Positions 1-30,950 of a stretch of DNA of 38,032 nt are shown here, piece after piece. The translations under genes were made by a program, and so were the position numbers. The number at the start of each line of letters is the position of its first letter. Position 1 is the first letter of the stretch. The stretch lies in IMG/VR virus record IMGVR_UViG_3300037674_000751, positions 1-38,032 of that record; one strand, written 5' to 3'. The stretch is from a virus. The notes under the pieces are model-generated. The model was given only the letters and a program-made list of their open reading frames with translations, was not told the origin of the DNA and did not search any database.

Positions 1-1614
1 GTAGATAATAAAGGTGATGCTTGGATTGAATCAAAAGGTAAGAAGTATTCACCATCACAAATATCTGCTTTTACTTTACAAAAAATGAAAGAAACAGCAG
101 AAAAGTATTTAGGTCAAGAAGTTACCAAAGCAGTAATTACAGTACCTGCATACTTTAATGACGCACAACGTCAAGCAACAAAAGACGCAGGTAAAATTGC
201 AGGACTTGAAGTTGAACGTATTGTTAACGAACCAACTGCGGCCGCACTTGCTTATGGATTAGACAAAAAAGCAGACCAAAAAATTGCTGTATACGACTTA
301 GGTGGTGGTACATTTGACGTATCTATCTTAGAAACTGGCGAAAGTGTATTTGAAGTTAAATCAACTAATGGTGACACATCATTAGGTGGTGAAGACTTTG
401 ATAAAGTTTTAATTAATTACCTCGCAAGTGAATTTAAGAAAGACCAAGGCGTTGATTTAATGAATGACAAACTTGTTATTCAAAGACTAAAAGAAGCGGC
501 AGAAAAGGCAAAGATTGAACTGTCTTCTACTATAGAAACAGAAGTTAATCTTCCATTTATAACTGCTGACAAATCAGGACCTAAACACTTAAACATAAAA
601 ATTACAAGAGCCAAGTACGAATCACTAGTTGAGAAACTAATTGCAAGAACACTTGCTCCTTGTAAAACTGCACTAAAGGATTCAGGTTATAAAGCTAGTG
701 ATATCGACGAAGTAGTACTTGTTGGTGGTATGACTAGAATGCCTAAGGTACAAGAAACTGTTAAAAACTTCTTTGGTAAAGAACCTCACAAAGGTGTTAA
801 CCCAGATGAAGTTGTTGCTCTTGGAGCCGCAATTCAGGCTGGTGTATTACAAGGTGATGTTAAAGATGTGTTACTATTAGACGTAACTCCTTTATCACTT
901 GGTATTGAAACACTAGGTGGTGTAGCTACAAAACTTATTGATAAGAACACAACAATACCTACAAAGAAAAGCCAAACGTTTTCTACTGCTGATAATAATC
1001 AAGCGGCAGTTACAATTAAAGTTGTACAAGGTGAACGTGAAATGGCCGCTGACAATAAACTATTAGGAAATTTTGATCTAGTAGGAATTCCGCCAGCACC
1101 AAGAGGTATACCACAAATTGAAGTTACTTTTGATATTGATGCAAATGGAATAGTAAATGTTTCAGCAAAAGATAAAGGAACAGGCAAAGAACAGTCTATC
1201 CAAATTCAAGCATCAGGTGGATTAAGTGATTCTGAAATTGATAATATGGTTAAAGAAGCTGACGCTAATAAAGAAGCTGATAAAAAGAAACGTGATGAAG
1301 TCGATGCTCGTAATAATGCAGATGGGCTTATTCATGCTACTGAGAAGTCATTAGAAGAACATGGTGACAAAGTAACAGCTGAAGACAAAGAAGCTATACA
1401 AACAGCTCTAAGAAGCTTACAGGACGCCTTAAAAGAAGGTACTGATGTTGAAACAATTAAACGAAAAACACAGGATCTAAGTCAAGCGGCTATGAAGCTA
1501 GGTGAAGCTATATATAAAAGTCAACAAGAAGAAACCAAAGAAGAACAACCAGCAACCGACGATAAAAAAGACGATATTGTTGATGCAGAATTTGAAGAAG
1601 TCGATAAGAAGTAA
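1..1614 (+). CDS. dnaK: Chaperone DnaK (Hsp70), 5' end cut off by window edge
   Basis: Reading is open from base 1 and 537 residues are visible; about 100 N-terminal residues (the first part of the ATPase domain) lie outside. Visible are the phosphate-binding motif [13 protein letters not shown] (bases 292-330), the adenosine motif VGGMTRMPK (about 721-747), the interdomain linker DVLLLD (about 865-885), a full substrate-binding domain and lid, and the conserved acidic end [10 protein letters not shown]. Hsp70 uses ATP to bind and release hydrophobic peptides with DnaJ and GrpE; neither partner gene is visible. The gene seems intact, not a fragment. It is followed 33 nt later by clpS and the bilin genes, so it is probably phage-borne, since no flanking bacterial genes are seen. 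Identification of the family is certain; its role in infection is inferred. Confidence 0.95.
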
Positions 1615-1647
1615 CCAGCATCAGAAATACGTTTTAGGAGCGCCTTG

Positions 1648-1956
1648 ATGATAAGTAATGTTATGGACGTAGAGATTGACGAAAAAATTAAGCAAAAGAT
1701 TGTTGAGCCCGACTTATATAAAGTTATTTTTCTAAATGACAATGCAACTCCGATGGAGTTCGTTATTGACGTGCTCATTTCAATCTTTAAACACTCTGAT
1801 ACTACTGCACGTGACTTAACGGTTAAGATACACGAAGAAGGGTCAGCTGTTGTTGGTGTATATTCCTTTGAAATTGCAGAACAAAAAGGAGTTGAAGCTA
1901 CCAATTTGAGTCGTTCTCATGGATTTCCGCTCCAGATTAAAGTGGAGAAAGAATGA
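1648..1956 (+). CDS. clpS: ClpS, N-end-rule adaptor of the Clp protease
   Basis: A 102-residue ClpS. The core LYKVIFLNDNATPMEFVIDV (residues 23-42) matches the E. coli motif YKVILVNDDYTPMEFVIDV. Known N-degron contacts are retained: Asn30 and Asp31 (E. coli N34, D35), the gatekeeper Met36 (M40) and His62 (H66); E. coli D36 is Asn32 here. A ~22-residue N-terminal extension, which in ClpS contacts ClpA, is present. I chose ATG 1648 with AGGAG at 1636-1640 over the in-frame TTG at 1645. ClpS delivers proteins with bulky hydrophobic N-termini to ClpAP. The gene overlaps the heme oxygenase start by 4 nt, implying translational coupling. A ClpP gene lies at 8429; no ClpA is in the window, so host ClpA would be the partner. 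Confidence 0.93.
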   Translation: MISNVMDVEIDEKIKQKIVEPDLYKVIFLNDNATPMEFVIDVLISIFKHSDTTARDLTVKIHEEGSAVVGVYSFEIAEQKGVEATNLSRSHGFPLQIKVEKE

Positions 1957-2498
1957 GTTTAAAAGAATTAACCAAAAGTGTTCACAGAGATGCTGAACGT
2001 CAAGATTTTGTAAGTGTTTTAATGTCAGGAGAAATTGATCCTGAGCTTTATGCAACATTTTTAGCAAACCAACATCCAATGTATGATGTGTTAGAAGCAC
2101 TTGCAATGGCTAAAGGATTGTTAAACGGATTACCTGACATACGTAGGGCACCAGCTATTCAAGAAGATTTTAAAGAATTATGGACTAGCTCTGATCCTGC
2201 ACCGCAACTCGAAGTTACTAAAAAATACGTTGACTATCTCCGTGAGATAGCAGACGACGAAACAAGATTATTTGCACACGTATATACTCGCCATATGGGC
2301 GATTTAAGTGGAGGGCGAATGATTAGCAAAAAAGTGCCAGGCGAAGGACGATTATATCAATTTAAAGAGCCTGATACTTTAAAAGCAAAAATACGTGAAC
2401 GGCTAACTGATGACATGGCTGAAGAATCGAAAGTTTGTTTTGAATTTGCTACTCAAACATTTCGAGAGATGATGCCCTATGTCAAATCATCAAGTTAA
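1953..2498 (+). CDS. ho1: Heme oxygenase (biliverdin-forming)
   Basis: A 181-residue heme oxygenase. His11 in LTKSVHRDAE is the proximal heme ligand, and the distal helix motif GDLSGGR is at residues 116-122. The family opens heme with O2 and reductant to biliverdin IX-alpha, CO and Fe2+. Length is shorter than typical cyanobacterial HO1 (about 240 residues), with the loss mainly at the C-terminus, but the catalytic core is complete. The start overlaps clpS by 4 nt and the end overlaps the halogenase by 20 nt. A bilin reductase lies three genes downstream, so biliverdin is the likely intermediate. Cytosolic; electrons presumably come from ferredoxin. Confidence 0.94.
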   Translation: MSLKELTKSVHRDAERQDFVSVLMSGEIDPELYATFLANQHPMYDVLEALAMAKGLLNGLPDIRRAPAIQEDFKELWTSSDPAPQLEVTKKYVDYLREIADDETRLFAHVYTRHMGDLSGGRMISKKVPGEGRLYQFKEPDTLKAKIRERLTDDMAEESKVCFEFATQTFREMMPYVKSSS

Positions 2499-3993
2499 AT
2501 CAATATGTATAGCAGGTGGTGGTTCAGCAGGATGGCTAACAGCCGCCTATGCATTACGTATACTACCATCTGATATAAACATCACACTAGTTGAAAGTCC
2601 TAATATTCCAATCATTGGAGTAGGCGAAGCAACACTATTAGGATTTGATAAATTTCTTAGTAAAGAATGTAATATTCCTTTTGAACTATGGACAAAAGAA
2701 TGTGATGTTACAATTAAACTAGGAACAAAATTTACTGACTGGTACGGAGACGGCTTAGATATATGGGAACCTTTCTTAGTACCTACAATTTCACATAACG
2801 ATTATCATTTTGATATACTTGATTTAACTCTTAAAGCTAAAATTGTCAAACCAGACTTTTATTCAACGTGTTCAAGTTGGTATGAAATTAGTGTAGAAGA
2901 TCAAAAAATTCCTTCCACAGCATCATTAAATGGTCCTGGCTCAGGGGATCACGAAGTAGCTTACAATTTAGATGCAATAAAACTAGCAAACTTTTTAAGT
3001 AGGTGGTGTAACGAAAAGTATCCCCAACTAACTCATATTAAAAAACATATAGATAAGCCTGTTGTTAAAGATGGAAACATAGACCATTTAATACTACAAG
3101 ACGGCAGTACTATTCATGCTGATGTGTTTATAGATTGTACTGGATTTAAAAAACTATTATCAAATGCAATAGGAGGAAGTGACTGGCGTGACCATAGTGA
3201 TATGCTATATGTTAATTCAGCAGTTGCTAGTCAAATTAATTACAAAAACGACGAAGAACCTCAACACCCATACGTAGACGCTACTGCTCATGACTTAGGT
3301 TGGATTTGGAAAACTCCTATTAAAGACAGAATAGGTAGTGGGTTATGTTATAACAATACGATTACAACAAAACAAGAAGCCGAAGATGCCTTTGTACAAC
3401 ATTGGGGTAAAGATAGATTAAGAACAGGCGAATTTAATCACATAAAATTTACTCCAGAGTATAATGCAAAAAATTGGCGGGGCAATGTTATTCCAGTAGG
3501 ATTGTCTAGTGGATTTGTTGAACCTTTAGAATCATCTGGTATAGCTTTAATGGTTAATAGTATGGCTCCAATTGGAGATTTTTTAATACGTGGAGAATAT
3601 ACAGACGCCGATAGAGAAGACTATAATGAAAGACTTACATTTGTTTATCAAAATACAATGGACTTTATGGGATTACATTATTTTAATAATCCACGAACAG
3701 GACCTTTCTGGAAGCTAGTTGAAGAAAAATATAATTCTACAGAATCTTTATTTGATTTAGTTAAAGGATTTAAATTAATTAGCAACACATCATTCCAACA
3801 ACAACACTTCCCTAGAGATACCGGACTTTATCATGAATACAATTGGAAATTATGGGCATACACATCTGGGATAGGCACTATGACTGGAGAGATGAGTGAA
3901 GAAGATGCACTAGCACATATTAACTCAATAAAAGATCACGATAACGAAGTATCTTATCCTGGAGTAAAAAATAGAGATTGGTCAAATAGATGA
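2479..3993 (+). CDS. Flavin-dependent tryptophan-halogenase-like enzyme
   Basis: A 504-residue FAD-dependent halogenase of the PrnA/RebH type. The FAD motif GGGSAGW is at residues 13-19 and GVGEAT at 47-52. The segment ECDVTIKLGTKFTDW (about 74-88) aligns without gaps to the PrnA/RebH region carrying the catalytic lysine, and both lysines (80 and 84) are kept. GWIWKTP (about 274-280) corresponds to the halogenase signature WxWxIP with Ile replaced by Thr. GFVEPLESSG (about 345-354) holds the Glu-Ser pair that corresponds to PrnA E346/S347. Family chemistry is FADH2 + O2 + halide giving HOX, guided to an electron-rich ring. Substrate is unknown. Cyanophage VirX1 is a known viral relative. Sits between heme oxygenase and nitrilase, overlapping both. 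Confidence 0.9.
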   Translation: MSNHQVKSICIAGGGSAGWLTAAYALRILPSDINITLVESPNIPIIGVGEATLLGFDKFLSKECNIPFELWTKECDVTIKLGTKFTDWYGDGLDIWEPFLVPTISHNDYHFDILDLTLKAKIVKPDFYSTCSSWYEISVEDQKIPSTASLNGPGSGDHEVAYNLDAIKLANFLSRWCNEKYPQLTHIKKHIDKPVVKDGNIDHLILQDGSTIHADVFIDCTGFKKLLSNAIGGSDWRDHSDMLYVNSAVASQINYKNDEEPQHPYVDATAHDLGWIWKTPIKDRIGSGLCYNNTITTKQEAEDAFVQHWGKDRLRTGEFNHIKFTPEYNAKNWRGNVIPVGLSSGFVEPLESSGIALMVNSMAPIGDFLIRGEYTDADREDYNERLTFVYQNTMDFMGLHYFNNPRTGPFWKLVEEKYNSTESLFDLVKGFKLISNTSFQQQHFPRDTGLYHEYNWKLWAYTSGIGTMTGEMSEEDALAHINSIKDHDNEVSYPGVKNRDWSNR

Positions 3994-4763
3994 GATTAGC
4001 CGGAGCACAAATACCTGTTTCTAAAGATGTTGAGAAAAATGTCGAAACTATAAAACACGCAATTGATTGGGCTACAGATAACGAGTGTGATTTTCTTGTA
4101 ACGCCTGAAGGTTCTTTAAGTGGATATCTTCCAGGGTTTAATATTGAAGAAACTATTAAAGGACTTGCTGACATCGAAGAATATGCTAAAGAAAAAAGTA
4201 TGGGGTTATGTTTAGGAACATTATGGCTTGATAAAGAAGACCAAGGTGATATTAGAAGAAATCAAATTAGATTTTATGATAAAGAAGGTGTATTTTTAGG
4301 CCGTGCTAATAAAACACATGGTGTTAATCATGATGAAACTTTTTTAATGAATGATATTGATAAAGAAGGTATTAGAATTTTCTCACTACTAACTCCACCT
4401 GGTGGTACAGGTCAACAGTATCTTAATGCAGTTGGATTAATATGTAATGATATGTGGCCACACTATGCTAGTAAAAGTATACCTCATTTAGCTGAATTGG
4501 CAGGAGCAACAATTTTAATCCATAGTTCAAATGGTGCTAGAGGAAATGACAAAGATAAAGTATATAATACATGGCACGATGCCAATTTAAAAATGATAAG
4601 TCATATTACACGAATTCCTATTATAACTGTGGATAATATATATCATATAAACGGCGAATATTATGACGGACCTACAAGTAGTGAAAGCGGTGTTGTTATA
4701 GACGGCGAATGGGTAACAGATGTTCCAAGAACAGGAACACAATATTTTTATTGGGATTTTTAA
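3990..4763 (+). CDS. Carbon-nitrogen hydrolase (nitrilase superfamily)
   Basis: A 257-residue nitrilase-superfamily protein, about the usual single-domain length. The Glu-Lys-Cys triad is visible: Glu40 in TPEGSLSGY, Lys108 in GRANKTHG and Cys152 in GLICNDMW. Members hydrolyse or condense nitrile, amide, N-carbamoyl or acylated amine C-N bonds; the sequence does not tell which. The start ATG overlaps the halogenase stop by 4 nt (ATGA) and the stop lies 1 nt before the bilin reductase start, so it is translated as part of the same operon. Action on a pigment side chain, on a tryptophan-derived amide or nitrile, or on nitrogen salvage are all open possibilities. Confidence 0.88.
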   Translation: MRLAGAQIPVSKDVEKNVETIKHAIDWATDNECDFLVTPEGSLSGYLPGFNIEETIKGLADIEEYAKEKSMGLCLGTLWLDKEDQGDIRRNQIRFYDKEGVFLGRANKTHGVNHDETFLMNDIDKEGIRIFSLLTPPGGTGQQYLNAVGLICNDMWPHYASKSIPHLAELAGATILIHSSNGARGNDKDKVYNTWHDANLKMISHITRIPIITVDNIYHINGEYYDGPTSSESGVVIDGEWVTDVPRTGTQYFYWDF

Positions 4764-4764
4764 T

Positions 4765-5460
4765 ATGAGCGTACTATGGAATAAACTAATACAAAGTCAA
4801 GAAGATATTATTAATATTTTCGATAGTCAATGTAAAGAAATACAAGAACCAGGTATGGATCATTTTAATCAGCCCGACGGAGGTTGGATTAATAGAGTAT
4901 GGGCTAATGATAATATACGTAGAGCTCATATTGACGTAGTAGATGCACGTGAGTCAAAAGGTCTTTGGATGATGCACGTATGCTGTTTTCCTGTATTAAA
5001 TAATGACGGCCCTATATATGGATTTGATGTTATCTCTGGTAAGAACAAAATGACTGGGGCCTTTCATGACTTTTCAGCTTCTTCTGGTGGCGCAGATCAT
5101 CCATTAGTAGAGTGGTTTGAAAACGAAGTTAAAGAATTTATTCCAAGCAAAAGACGTGAATTACCTCAATGGGCATTAAACATCTTTACAGATAGTTTTA
5201 TTGCCGCAGGTAATGTTCAAGATGACGAAGAAGCTACAGCTATAATAGACCTAGCAGTAAATAATCTAAAAGTATACTTTGAAAGCATAGGGCAATATGC
5301 GGGCATGGGCGATCGTGAGCTTACAATAGCATCACAAAATTATTACTGTGATAATCAGCAACAAAACCCACACACACCACGAGTAATGACTAGTTTAGGC
5401 CTTAACGAAGCTGATGTGCAAAAGTTTTGTACGGATATGCTCTTCCCTAAAATAGTATAA
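4765..5460 (+). CDS. Ferredoxin-dependent bilin reductase (PcyA/PcyX/PebS family)
   Basis: A 231-residue protein recognisable as an FDBR (HY2 family). PIYGFDVISG (83-92) matches PcyA PLFGCDIVAG, with Asp88 equal to catalytic D105. MMHVCCF holds His71, equal to H88; RAHIDV holds His55, equal to H74. RRELPQW and the C-terminal NYYCDNQQQN also match PcyA. PcyA Glu76 is replaced by Asp57. The start is ATG 4765; an in-frame ATG at 4720 lies inside the nitrilase gene and is less likely. FDBRs reduce biliverdin with ferredoxin electrons to phycobilins. Viral members include PebS of cyanophage P-SSM2 and the metagenomic PcyX, both giving phycoerythrobilin. Resemblance to PcyA plus the phage context points to PcyX, but this needs a tree. 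Confidence 0.88.
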   Translation: MSVLWNKLIQSQEDIINIFDSQCKEIQEPGMDHFNQPDGGWINRVWANDNIRRAHIDVVDARESKGLWMMHVCCFPVLNNDGPIYGFDVISGKNKMTGAFHDFSASSGGADHPLVEWFENEVKEFIPSKRRELPQWALNIFTDSFIAAGNVQDDEEATAIIDLAVNNLKVYFESIGQYAGMGDRELTIASQNYYCDNQQQNPHTPRVMTSLGLNEADVQKFCTDMLFPKIV

Positions 5461-14851: not shown

Positions 14852-15022
14852 ATGAATTTAGTCGCCGCCTTAATAGTAATTCTTTTTCTATCTGGATGTA
14901 CAAGTACAATTAGATATATAAAGACGTGCGACACATATACAGGAGTCTCAATACACGGAAGTTCAAAAGATGAACTCGTAGAGAATGCAATACCACAACT
15001 CACCGTTACCTGCCCAATTTAA
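14852..15022 (+). CDS. Small lipoprotein, 56 aa
   Basis: MNLVAALIVILFLSGCTST is a lipoprotein signal peptide with lipobox LSGC (Cys16), leaving a mature peptide of about 41 residues with two more cysteines. No good Shine-Dalgarno is seen; AGTAAATA (14838-14845) resembles a late octamer and lies 6 nt before the ATG. The SET-domain gene starts inside its end. It could be an outer-membrane spanin-like or entry-exclusion lipoprotein; neither is proven. Confidence 0.6.
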   Translation: MNLVAALIVILFLSGCTSTIRYIKTCDTYTGVSIHGSSKDELVENAIPQLTVTCPI

Positions 15023-15494
15023 AAAATTTTGGTATAAGAAGAAATCCAAAGTACACGGGTCCGGTCTCTTTGCTAGTAAGCCTATTCCAAAAGGCACAAC
15101 AATTATAGAATACACAGGCGAGAAAGTTAAAAAGAAAATAGGTTATAAAAGAGCAGACAAACACCTTCCTAAAGTATGGATATTCGAATTAAGTCATCAT
15201 TATCTTATTGATGGCAAATTTCCACGAAACCACGCAAGACTAATTAATCATTCATGCGAACCAAATTGTGATATAAAAATTAAAAAAGATCATATTTGGA
15301 TATACGCAAAAAAAGATATTAATAAAAATAAAGAATTAAATTATAACTACGGCTATGATTATGATCGTGATGATATCCTTGATCATCCTTGTAAATGTGG
15401 CTCACCAAAATGTGTAGGCTATATTGTAGAACAAGACCAATGGCCTAAACTTAAAAAGTATTTGACAAAAGCCAAAAAAGAGTATACAGTATAA
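14985..15494 (+). CDS. SET-domain protein lysine methyltransferase
   Basis: 169 residues with the SET motifs in order: VHGSGLFASKPIPKG (substrate/AdoMet start), ARLINHSCEPNC (AdoMet-binding NHS, about residues 85-96), NKELNYNYGYDY (catalytic tyrosine region) and a post-SET zinc cluster PCKCGSPKCVGY. The protein is complete and could methylate lysine on a host or phage protein; the target is unknown. The start overlaps the lipoprotein end by 38 nt, the only in-frame ATG before the domain. A promoter for tRNA-Arg lies in its final codons. Confidence 0.9.
   Translation: MQYHNSPLPAQFKKFWYKKKSKVHGSGLFASKPIPKGTTIIEYTGEKVKKKIGYKRADKHLPKVWIFELSHHYLIDGKFPRNHARLINHSCEPNCDIKIKKDHIWIYAKKDINKNKELNYNYGYDYDRDDILDHPCKCGSPKCVGYIVEQDQWPKLKKYLTKAKKEYTV
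15462..15490 (+). promoter_or_regulatory. Sigma-70 promoter for tRNA-Arg (TTGACA-17-TACAGT)
   Basis: A perfect -35 at 15462-15467 and a weak -10 (TACAGT, 15485-15490) with 17-bp spacing, inside the end of the SET gene. The tRNA starts 8 nt after the -10, like the tRNA-Thr promoter. The -10 is only four of six matches. Confidence 0.5.
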
Positions 15495-26894: not shown

Positions 26895-26960
26895 AATATA
26901 GAAATGAGGACTACAACGTCGACCCTCTTTAAATACTCCGCCGTTAAAAAGGAGAAAAGA

Positions 26961-27404
26961 ATGGTACACAAAAGTACAAAAACTTATGGTAATGATAGAG
27001 GTTTCAGTTGTGCGTTCAGACAGGCGTTAGCAGAAAGTCATTGTAATTTAATTCATGGTTATAGTTTAGGTTTCAGATTTGAATTTGAAGCATTTGAATT
27101 AGACGATAAGAATTGGGTTTACGATTTCGGAAACTGTGGCTGGATTAAACAATACCTAGAAGATAACTTCGATCATAAAATAGCTGTTGATAAAGCAGAT
27201 CCTAATTTAAGCGATTTTGTAGCACTAGAAGAAAAAGGTCTTGCAAAAGTTATTCAAATGGATGGCGTTGGTTGTGAAAAATTTGCAGAACACGTTTACA
27301 ATTACATATCACCAATTATCGATGAAGACACAGGAGGTCGTGTAAGACTTTCTAGTGTTGAAGTTTTTGAACACGGTAGTAATAGTGCAAAATTGGAAAG
27401 ATAA
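26961..27404 (+). CDS. PTPS/QueD-like protein with altered zinc site
   Basis: 147 residues from ATG 26961 with GGAG at 26951-26954; an in-frame ATG at 26904 has no such site. The fold is 6-pyruvoyl-tetrahydropterin synthase / QueD: CNLIHGYSLGF (Cys28, His32), VYDFGN, FDHKIAVD (catalytic-type His72) and VEVFEHGS (Glu). But the zinc His of FDAAHR is Phe19 here and HGH is HGY (Tyr34), so two of three usual zinc ligands are missing. QueD makes a precursor of queuosine and 7-deazaguanines; this type may have another ligand or job. It overlaps the next gene by 1 nt. No other queuosine gene is in the window. Confidence 0.78.
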   Translation: MVHKSTKTYGNDRGFSCAFRQALAESHCNLIHGYSLGFRFEFEAFELDDKNWVYDFGNCGWIKQYLEDNFDHKIAVDKADPNLSDFVALEEKGLAKVIQMDGVGCEKFAEHVYNYISPIIDEDTGGRVRLSSVEVFEHGSNSAKLER

Positions 27405-30572: not shown

Positions 30573-30598
30573 AATTACATTAGGATTTTAGACATATT

Positions 30599-30606
30599 GA
30601 TAAATA
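30599..30606 (+). promoter_or_regulatory. Late promoter octamer GATAAATA
   Basis: Seven of eight matches, 20 nt before the IscA-like ATG; the leader has room for GGA (30618-30620). Lies 26 bp from the divergent octamer at 30565. Confidence 0.62.
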
Positions 30607-30626
30607 CAATTAACAAAGGAACTAAT

Positions 30627-30950
30627 ATGGCAATAGTAACATTGACAGAATCAGCAATAGACCAGATGAATTATATGCTGGCCGCTAAGAATAAACCAGT
30701 TGTACGCCTATCTATGAAGGGTGGCGGATGTGCAGGAATGCAATATGACTGGACTATGTCAGATGCTGTAGAAGATAAAGACGAAGTAATTAACTTGAAA
30801 AAAGGTAAATTTGCAATTGACTCATTAAGTCAAATGTACTTAATGGGTTCAACAATTAATTATAAAGAAGAATTATTTGGATCATTTTTTGATATCACTA
30901 ATCCAGCAACAAAAAATAGTTGCGGATGTGGTGAATCCGTAGGATTTTAA
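30627..30950 (+). CDS. A-type Fe-S cluster carrier (IscA/ErpA/HesB-like)
   Basis: 107 residues from ATG 30627; an ATG at 30597 lies before the promoter. Cys35 in GGGCAGMQYDW and Cys99-Gly-Cys101 in SCGCGESVGF are the three conserved cluster ligands. The family carries Fe-S clusters or iron. Phages encode similar proteins, and in some T4-like phages a HesB-like domain has been proposed as part of the tail. Here it is under a late octamer and 3 nt before the giant structural gene, so it may be a virion component. Function in the virus is inferred. Confidence 0.9.
   Translation: MAIVTLTESAIDQMNYMLAAKNKPVVRLSMKGGGCAGMQYDWTMSDAVEDKDEVINLKKGKFAIDSLSQMYLMGSTINYKEELFGSFFDITNPATKNSCGCGESVGF

Follow-up and report, generated by a model that had tools for sequence, protein, structure and literature searches.

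A phage-borne PcyX-type bilin reductase, a likely phycoerythrobilin synthase, encoded with clpS, heme oxygenase, halogenase, and hydrolase genes

A PcyX-type bilin reductase gene (pcyX) is carried by the marine phage contig analyzed here, a 38,032-nt (38 kb) IMG/VR virus record referred to as the window over its whole length. Based upon sequence comparison, the encoded enzyme would, with a probability of roughly 0.8, reduce biliverdin derived from heme oxygenase (HemO) to the pink pigment phycoerythrobilin (PEB) as a member of the PcyX lineage using a host ferredoxin. Because the record is a phage contig, pcyX represents a further member of an already described enzyme class; nothing sets the enzyme apart from others of its type, and PEB formation is a described property of PcyX rather than a new one. 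A cellular origin of the window was ruled out since the source is a virus record. The first-pass annotation had reported a bilin reductase without the Glu76 of PcyA and with a predicted PEB product; the open reading frame, its coordinates, and the residues were all confirmed. A longer ATG exists at position 4720, and relatives begin at the equivalent of 4765.

Membership of the predicted product in PcyX is well supported by sequence, tree, and fold. The protein matched the Pfam family Fe_bilin_red (PF05996) with 50.8 bits (cut-off 31) and scored 75.4 bits against the NCBIfam PcyA equivalog NF002760, below the cut-off of 206. The best PDB match was 5OWG (PcyX_EBK42635; E=2.1e-81, 276 bits), while PcyA structures reached at most 48 bits, and a profile built from relatives gave 374 bits for the 5OWG PcyX versus 64 bits for PcyA. 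Identity was 53% to 5OWG, 54% to the PcyX of pelagiphage Mosig, and 24-27% to PcyA. The predicted structure (pLDDT 92.8) had 5OWG as its top fold match, with a TM score of 0.94 by target length. The window protein resembles 5OWG in family, fold, size, Asp55/His/Asp residues, heme oxygenase partner, and phage origin, but belongs to a separate, strongly supported clade with clpS, halogenase, and nitrilase-like neighbors for which no report was found in the available literature.

Alignment with Synechocystis PcyA (2D1E) placed Asp57 of the window protein opposite Glu76, His71 opposite His88, and Asp88 opposite Asp105, as the first-pass annotation had proposed. Asp57 aligns with position 63 of the 5OWG chain, which becomes Asp55 once 8 residues, taken by us as a tag, are subtracted. 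A residue survey included 162 distinct full-length relatives (viral contigs and four metagenome bins) along with the window, Mosig, and 5OWG proteins. The Asp57, His71, and Asp88 columns were invariant in all 165 of these distinct sequences, which reflects conservation within the class and is no independent test, since resemblance to PcyX was how these sequences were chosen; more than 60 further columns were likewise invariant across divergent phages. The invariance of Asp57 in the 165 sequences ruled out that it stems from faulty sequencing or a random replacement. Glu occupied the Asp57 column in all four PcyA references (two cyanobacterial and two cyanophage). A PcyA with a compensating Glu was also considered and rejected, the Glu residues common to all PcyX and cyanophage PcyA in an alignment of the two (28 and 156) not lying close to Asp57 in sequence. 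Asp55 has been named a PcyX-specific catalytic residue (PMC11480375), and Glu76 is described as PcyA-specific, required for 18-vinyl reduction, and absent from PcyX (PMC10151467).

Comparison with the known PcyA enzymes of cyanobacteria and cyanophages (2D1E, 2G18) revealed a common lineage and equivalents of His88 and Asp105; the window protein differs from them in carrying Asp for Glu76, in its low identity, and in its score below the PcyA equivalog cut-off. The reaction predicted for the window enzyme, biliverdin to PEB within one enzyme, is that of PebS of cyanophage P-SSM2, which lies on another branch. PebS, like PebB, carries Asn at the His71 column and has its second catalytic Asp (Asp206) where the window protein has Asn201, an Asn found in both PcyX and PcyA.

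A tree of 108 sequences, the main gap of which is that alphaproteobacterial PcyA and the PcyA of freshwater phage CB_2 were left out, split the PcyX set, with the window protein, from four PcyA with a support of 99 and placed the window protein outside the branch of PebS, PebA, and PebB. This agrees with the placement in PcyX anticipated from the letters of the sequence. Within PcyX, two groups were separated with a support of 100 and a branch length of ~1.1, one containing 5OWG and pelagiphage Mosig (Mosig-type) and the other containing the window (window-type). To our knowledge, no enzyme assay has been reported within the window-type clade. Alphaproteobacterial PcyA and PcyX together form the AX clade (PMC10151467), and the CB_2 phage PcyA has been placed midway between PcyX and PcyA (PMC11480375). 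A Pfam search of 385 genomes of one class and of two single-genome orders yielded no usable alphaproteobacterial PcyA, and none was found in plasmids. Window-type PcyX also occurred on very long contigs, namely L087 (335 kb, labelled as a Neomarinimicrobiota MAG), L301 (357 kb), and L321 (262 kb). L087 looks phage-like by gene content in the stretch that was read, possibly indicating large phages, some of them binned into bacterial genomes; judged on this gene content, the bacterial-MAG matches to PcyX look like phage contigs.

PcyX enzymes make PEB via 15,16-dihydrobiliverdin (PMC11480375, PMC13193486, PMC6755814), including published PcyX proteins bearing Asp55 (PMC11480375). The product of the window enzyme is therefore likely PEB, the best prediction on the ground that the protein belongs to the PcyX family; Asp57 is diagnostic of that family, and the prediction does not depend on this one residue. 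Alignment, tree, fold, and literature thus agree with the first-pass annotation on PcyX placement and on PEB, but its reasoning from the missing Glu76 to PEB oversimplifies. Glu76 is equally absent from pre-PcyA enzymes, whose product is either phytochromobilin or PEB (PMC10151467), and which product a given reductase of this family makes has been called not reliably predictable (PMC13193486), so that absence of the residue is insufficient to define the product. Asp57 in place of Glu76 marks the lineage and may not set the product by itself. In work by Ledermann and colleagues (FEBS J 2018) this Asp was reportedly dispensable for PcyX catalysis, and restoring Glu is said to have given no PcyA activity.

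In the proposed pathway, the heme oxygenase would open heme to biliverdin IXa with release of iron, and a host [2Fe-2S] ferredoxin would presumably donate electrons to PcyX. The reductase would then convert biliverdin in two two-electron steps to a putative 15,16-dihydrobiliverdin intermediate and on to PEB, with the Asp88-His71 pair probably used in biliverdin reduction. Reduction of the 18-vinyl group is not expected, because the enzyme is of the PcyX lineage with a pocket unlike that of PcyA. No ferredoxin gene was detected in the 38-kb window, which may itself be a fragment. It is highly improbable that the enzyme is functionally a PcyA making phycocyanobilin like the CB_2 enzyme. PcyX does belong to the PcyA lineage, one phage PcyA/X-like enzyme has been shown to make phycocyanobilin (PMC11480375), and Asp could in principle stand in for the acid of Glu76; however, CB_2 lacks the PcyX Asp55 that the window protein has (PMC11480375), and sequence, tree, and fold all favor the PcyX of 5OWG. 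A reductase that halts at or favors one of the two-electron products 15,16-dihydrobiliverdin and phytochromobilin, or that has lost activity, its sole role being to draw off biliverdin so that iron is released, would be in keeping with the phytochromobilin made by pre-PcyA relatives without Glu76 (PMC10151467) and with PcyX having the lowest apparent activity among PEB synthases in Synechococcus (PMC13197396). Such an enzyme is nevertheless improbable, since invariance of the Asp-His pair and of the additional columns across divergent phages argues for conserved full activity.

The genes surrounding pcyX are listed in Table 1. The order clpS, hemO, halogenase, carbon-nitrogen hydrolase, pcyX has junctions of -4, -20, -4, and +1 bases, a spacing typical of an operon with translational coupling; hemO and pcyX share this operon without being adjacent, the halogenase and hydrolase genes lying between them. 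Upstream of this set, DnaK lacks its first ~120 residues, the start of the contig falling within its gene (window 1-1614); in several related phages, too, dnaK precedes clpS.

Table 1. Predicted features of the pcyX region of the window.
Feature	Position	Strand	Evidence
dnaK, 5'-truncated	85..1614	+	PF00012, matched from profile position 121 (profile length 599)
clpS, Clp protease adaptor, first gene of overlapping set	1645..1956	+	PF02617, 93 bits
hemO, heme oxygenase	1953..2498	+	PF01126, 75 bits; PDB heme oxygenases, E ~3e-11; vHxxAE and GDLSGG motifs
Flavin-dependent halogenase, Trp_halogenase family	2479..3993	+	PF04820, 306 bits; closest solved kin Thal, PrnA, VirX1
Nitrilase-like carbon-nitrogen hydrolase	3990..4763	+	PF00795, 43 bits
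pcyX, ferredoxin-dependent bilin reductase, PcyX type, 231 aa	4765..5460	+	PF05996, 5OWG match, tree, fold
pcyX Asp57 codon (PcyA Glu76 / PcyX Asp55 position)	4933..4935	+	Alignment
pcyX His71 codon (PcyA His88 position)	4975..4977	+	Alignment
pcyX Asp88 codon (PcyA Asp105 position)	5026..5028	+	Alignment

Among distinct cassettes with enough upstream sequence, hemO lay upstream of pcyX in 133 of 135. Of 93 window-type cassettes, 91 had a clpS gene directly preceding hemO and usually overlapping it, whereas none of the 42 cassettes of the Mosig type had one there. The cassette of Mosig EXVC030M (MT647606) is similar in the linkage of hemO to pcyX and in operon logic, but there the pair is directly linked, clpS, halogenase, and nitrilase genes are absent, and 2OG oxygenases and a ferrochelatase-like gene are found upstream instead. 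As far as the literature allows, the clpS-hemO-halogenase-hydrolase-pcyX cassette is an undescribed variant; no description of a halogenase and a nitrilase-like gene inside a pigment operon was found in a literature search that did not include the two primary PcyX papers. Other genes were also seen in this region. L005, a close relative without the halogenase, encodes, between hemO and pcyX, another protein resembling heme oxygenase together with one resembling 2OG oxygenases (2629-3252; identified by eye, with no family match). Many window-type cassettes carry a small uncharacterized gene (~70-110 aa, motif ~TGHIxTxIxxLExR) after hemO and just upstream of pcyX, examples being L024, L034, L039, L042, L048, and L061, among others.

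The gene between hemO and the hydrolase gene is assigned as a flavin-dependent halogenase by its Pfam match, its PDB kin, and preservation of the FAD motif and of the catalytic Lys and Glu. The GGGSAGW FAD motif, Lys80, Glu351, and Ser352 did not vary among 12 homologues or in the halogenase of Syn10; the WxWxIP motif reads WIWKTP in all 12 homologues, with both Trp and the Pro kept and Thr replacing Ile. The predicted structure was of middling quality (pLDDT 67), with PrnA as the best fold match. The VirX1-like halogenases, represented by gene CPUG_00132 of cyanophage Syn10, the source of VirX1, and by PDB 6QGM, share the FAD motif, the catalytic Lys and Glu, and the phage setting; identity is 30%, and the Syn10 gene does not adjoin annotated heme or bilin genes.

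Of the 80 nearest viral loci, 19 had a halogenase gene in the interval from hemO to pcyX, as did 13 of 135 distinct cassettes (approximately one tenth). A scan with the single halogenase protein gave one relative, and the informative outcome came from an alignment (profile) scan. Among the matches listed, halogenases of at least 53% identity had hemO upstream and pcyX downstream at every locus (17/17), and those of at most 36% identity had neither gene in the available flank, some flanks being short (0/64). The slot was occupied by a halogenase in the window and in L002-L004, L014, L027, L041, L055, L068, L075, L078, L089-L104, and L106. The same slot was used in two PcyX sub-branches with overlapping gene ends, corresponding to two changes on the PcyX tree; one gain with losses and two gains are both possible. 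Because the loci belong to related phages, common descent alone could account for much of the gene order, but the exact overlapping position of the halogenase within the cassette suggests a functional link.

The cassette could be imagined to end in a halogenated (e.g. iodinated, brominated, or chlorinated) bilin, with the halogenase acting on biliverdin, dihydrobiliverdin, or PEB. The restriction of the subfamily to the slot among the matches listed, its recurrence in two sub-branches, and the intact FAD motif and catalytic Lys and Glu are in line with such a product, as is the membership of the Syn10 relative in a group in which one halogenase accepts a broad range of substrates (a paper cited in the review PMC10452541). 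A halogenated bilin is nonetheless unlikely: only a small minority of cassettes contain a halogenase, shared descent among related phages can keep gene order, clpS is equally fixed in place without an obvious role in bilin chemistry, and WIWKTP stands at the WxWxIP motif. We know of no halogenated bilin on record, nor of a halogenated open-chain tetrapyrrole as a described natural product. That the clpS-hemO-halogenase-(nitrilase)-pcyX operon makes a compound of the latter type, with a halogenase subfamily dedicated to bilins, is a speculative proposal with little chance of being correct. The occurrence of this subfamily just between hemO and pcyX, among the matches listed, does point to testable chemistry.

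The nitrilase-like hydrolase contains Glu40, Lys108, and Cys152, the Glu-Lys-Cys triad of the nitrilase superfamily, invariant in 7 homologues. Hydrolase genes are also present in the hemO-pcyX slot of several lineages, representing five changes on the PcyX tree and thus repeated gain or loss. The substrate of the halogenase and the hydrolase may be the bilin or some other metabolite.

PEB synthases in marine phages have been called enigmatic (PMC11480375), and the enzyme described here confirms the known case in which marine phages carry them though their likely hosts lack phycobilisomes. Its neighborhood offers new handles on why, through a large separate PcyX clade tied to clpS and through the halogenase. 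The sole cultured relative, pelagiphage Mosig, carries the hemO-pcyX pair and infects Candidatus Pelagibacter ubique HTCC1062, a species without phycobilisomes. The purpose of the cassette may tentatively be seen, at slightly less than even odds, in turning over heme and supplying iron while the phage infects a host that lacks phycobilisomes, the bilin then being a by-product or secondary signal. For CB_2, light harvesting was thought unlikely and iron supply was mentioned (PMC11480375). An A-type Fe-S scaffold gene (30597-30950) and several 2OG-Fe oxygenase genes in the window are suggestive only with regard to iron supply. The window DnaK and DNA ligase, used as phage markers of the host, gave no near isolate. 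Phytochrome was detected in none of 32 genomes from the order of one MAG with a PcyX contig in its bin, a MAG that is not established as a host. Like the Fe-S scaffold, a 6-pyruvoyl-tetrahydropterin synthase-like protein (26904-27404) and a SET-domain protein (14985-15494) are phage-borne in the window.
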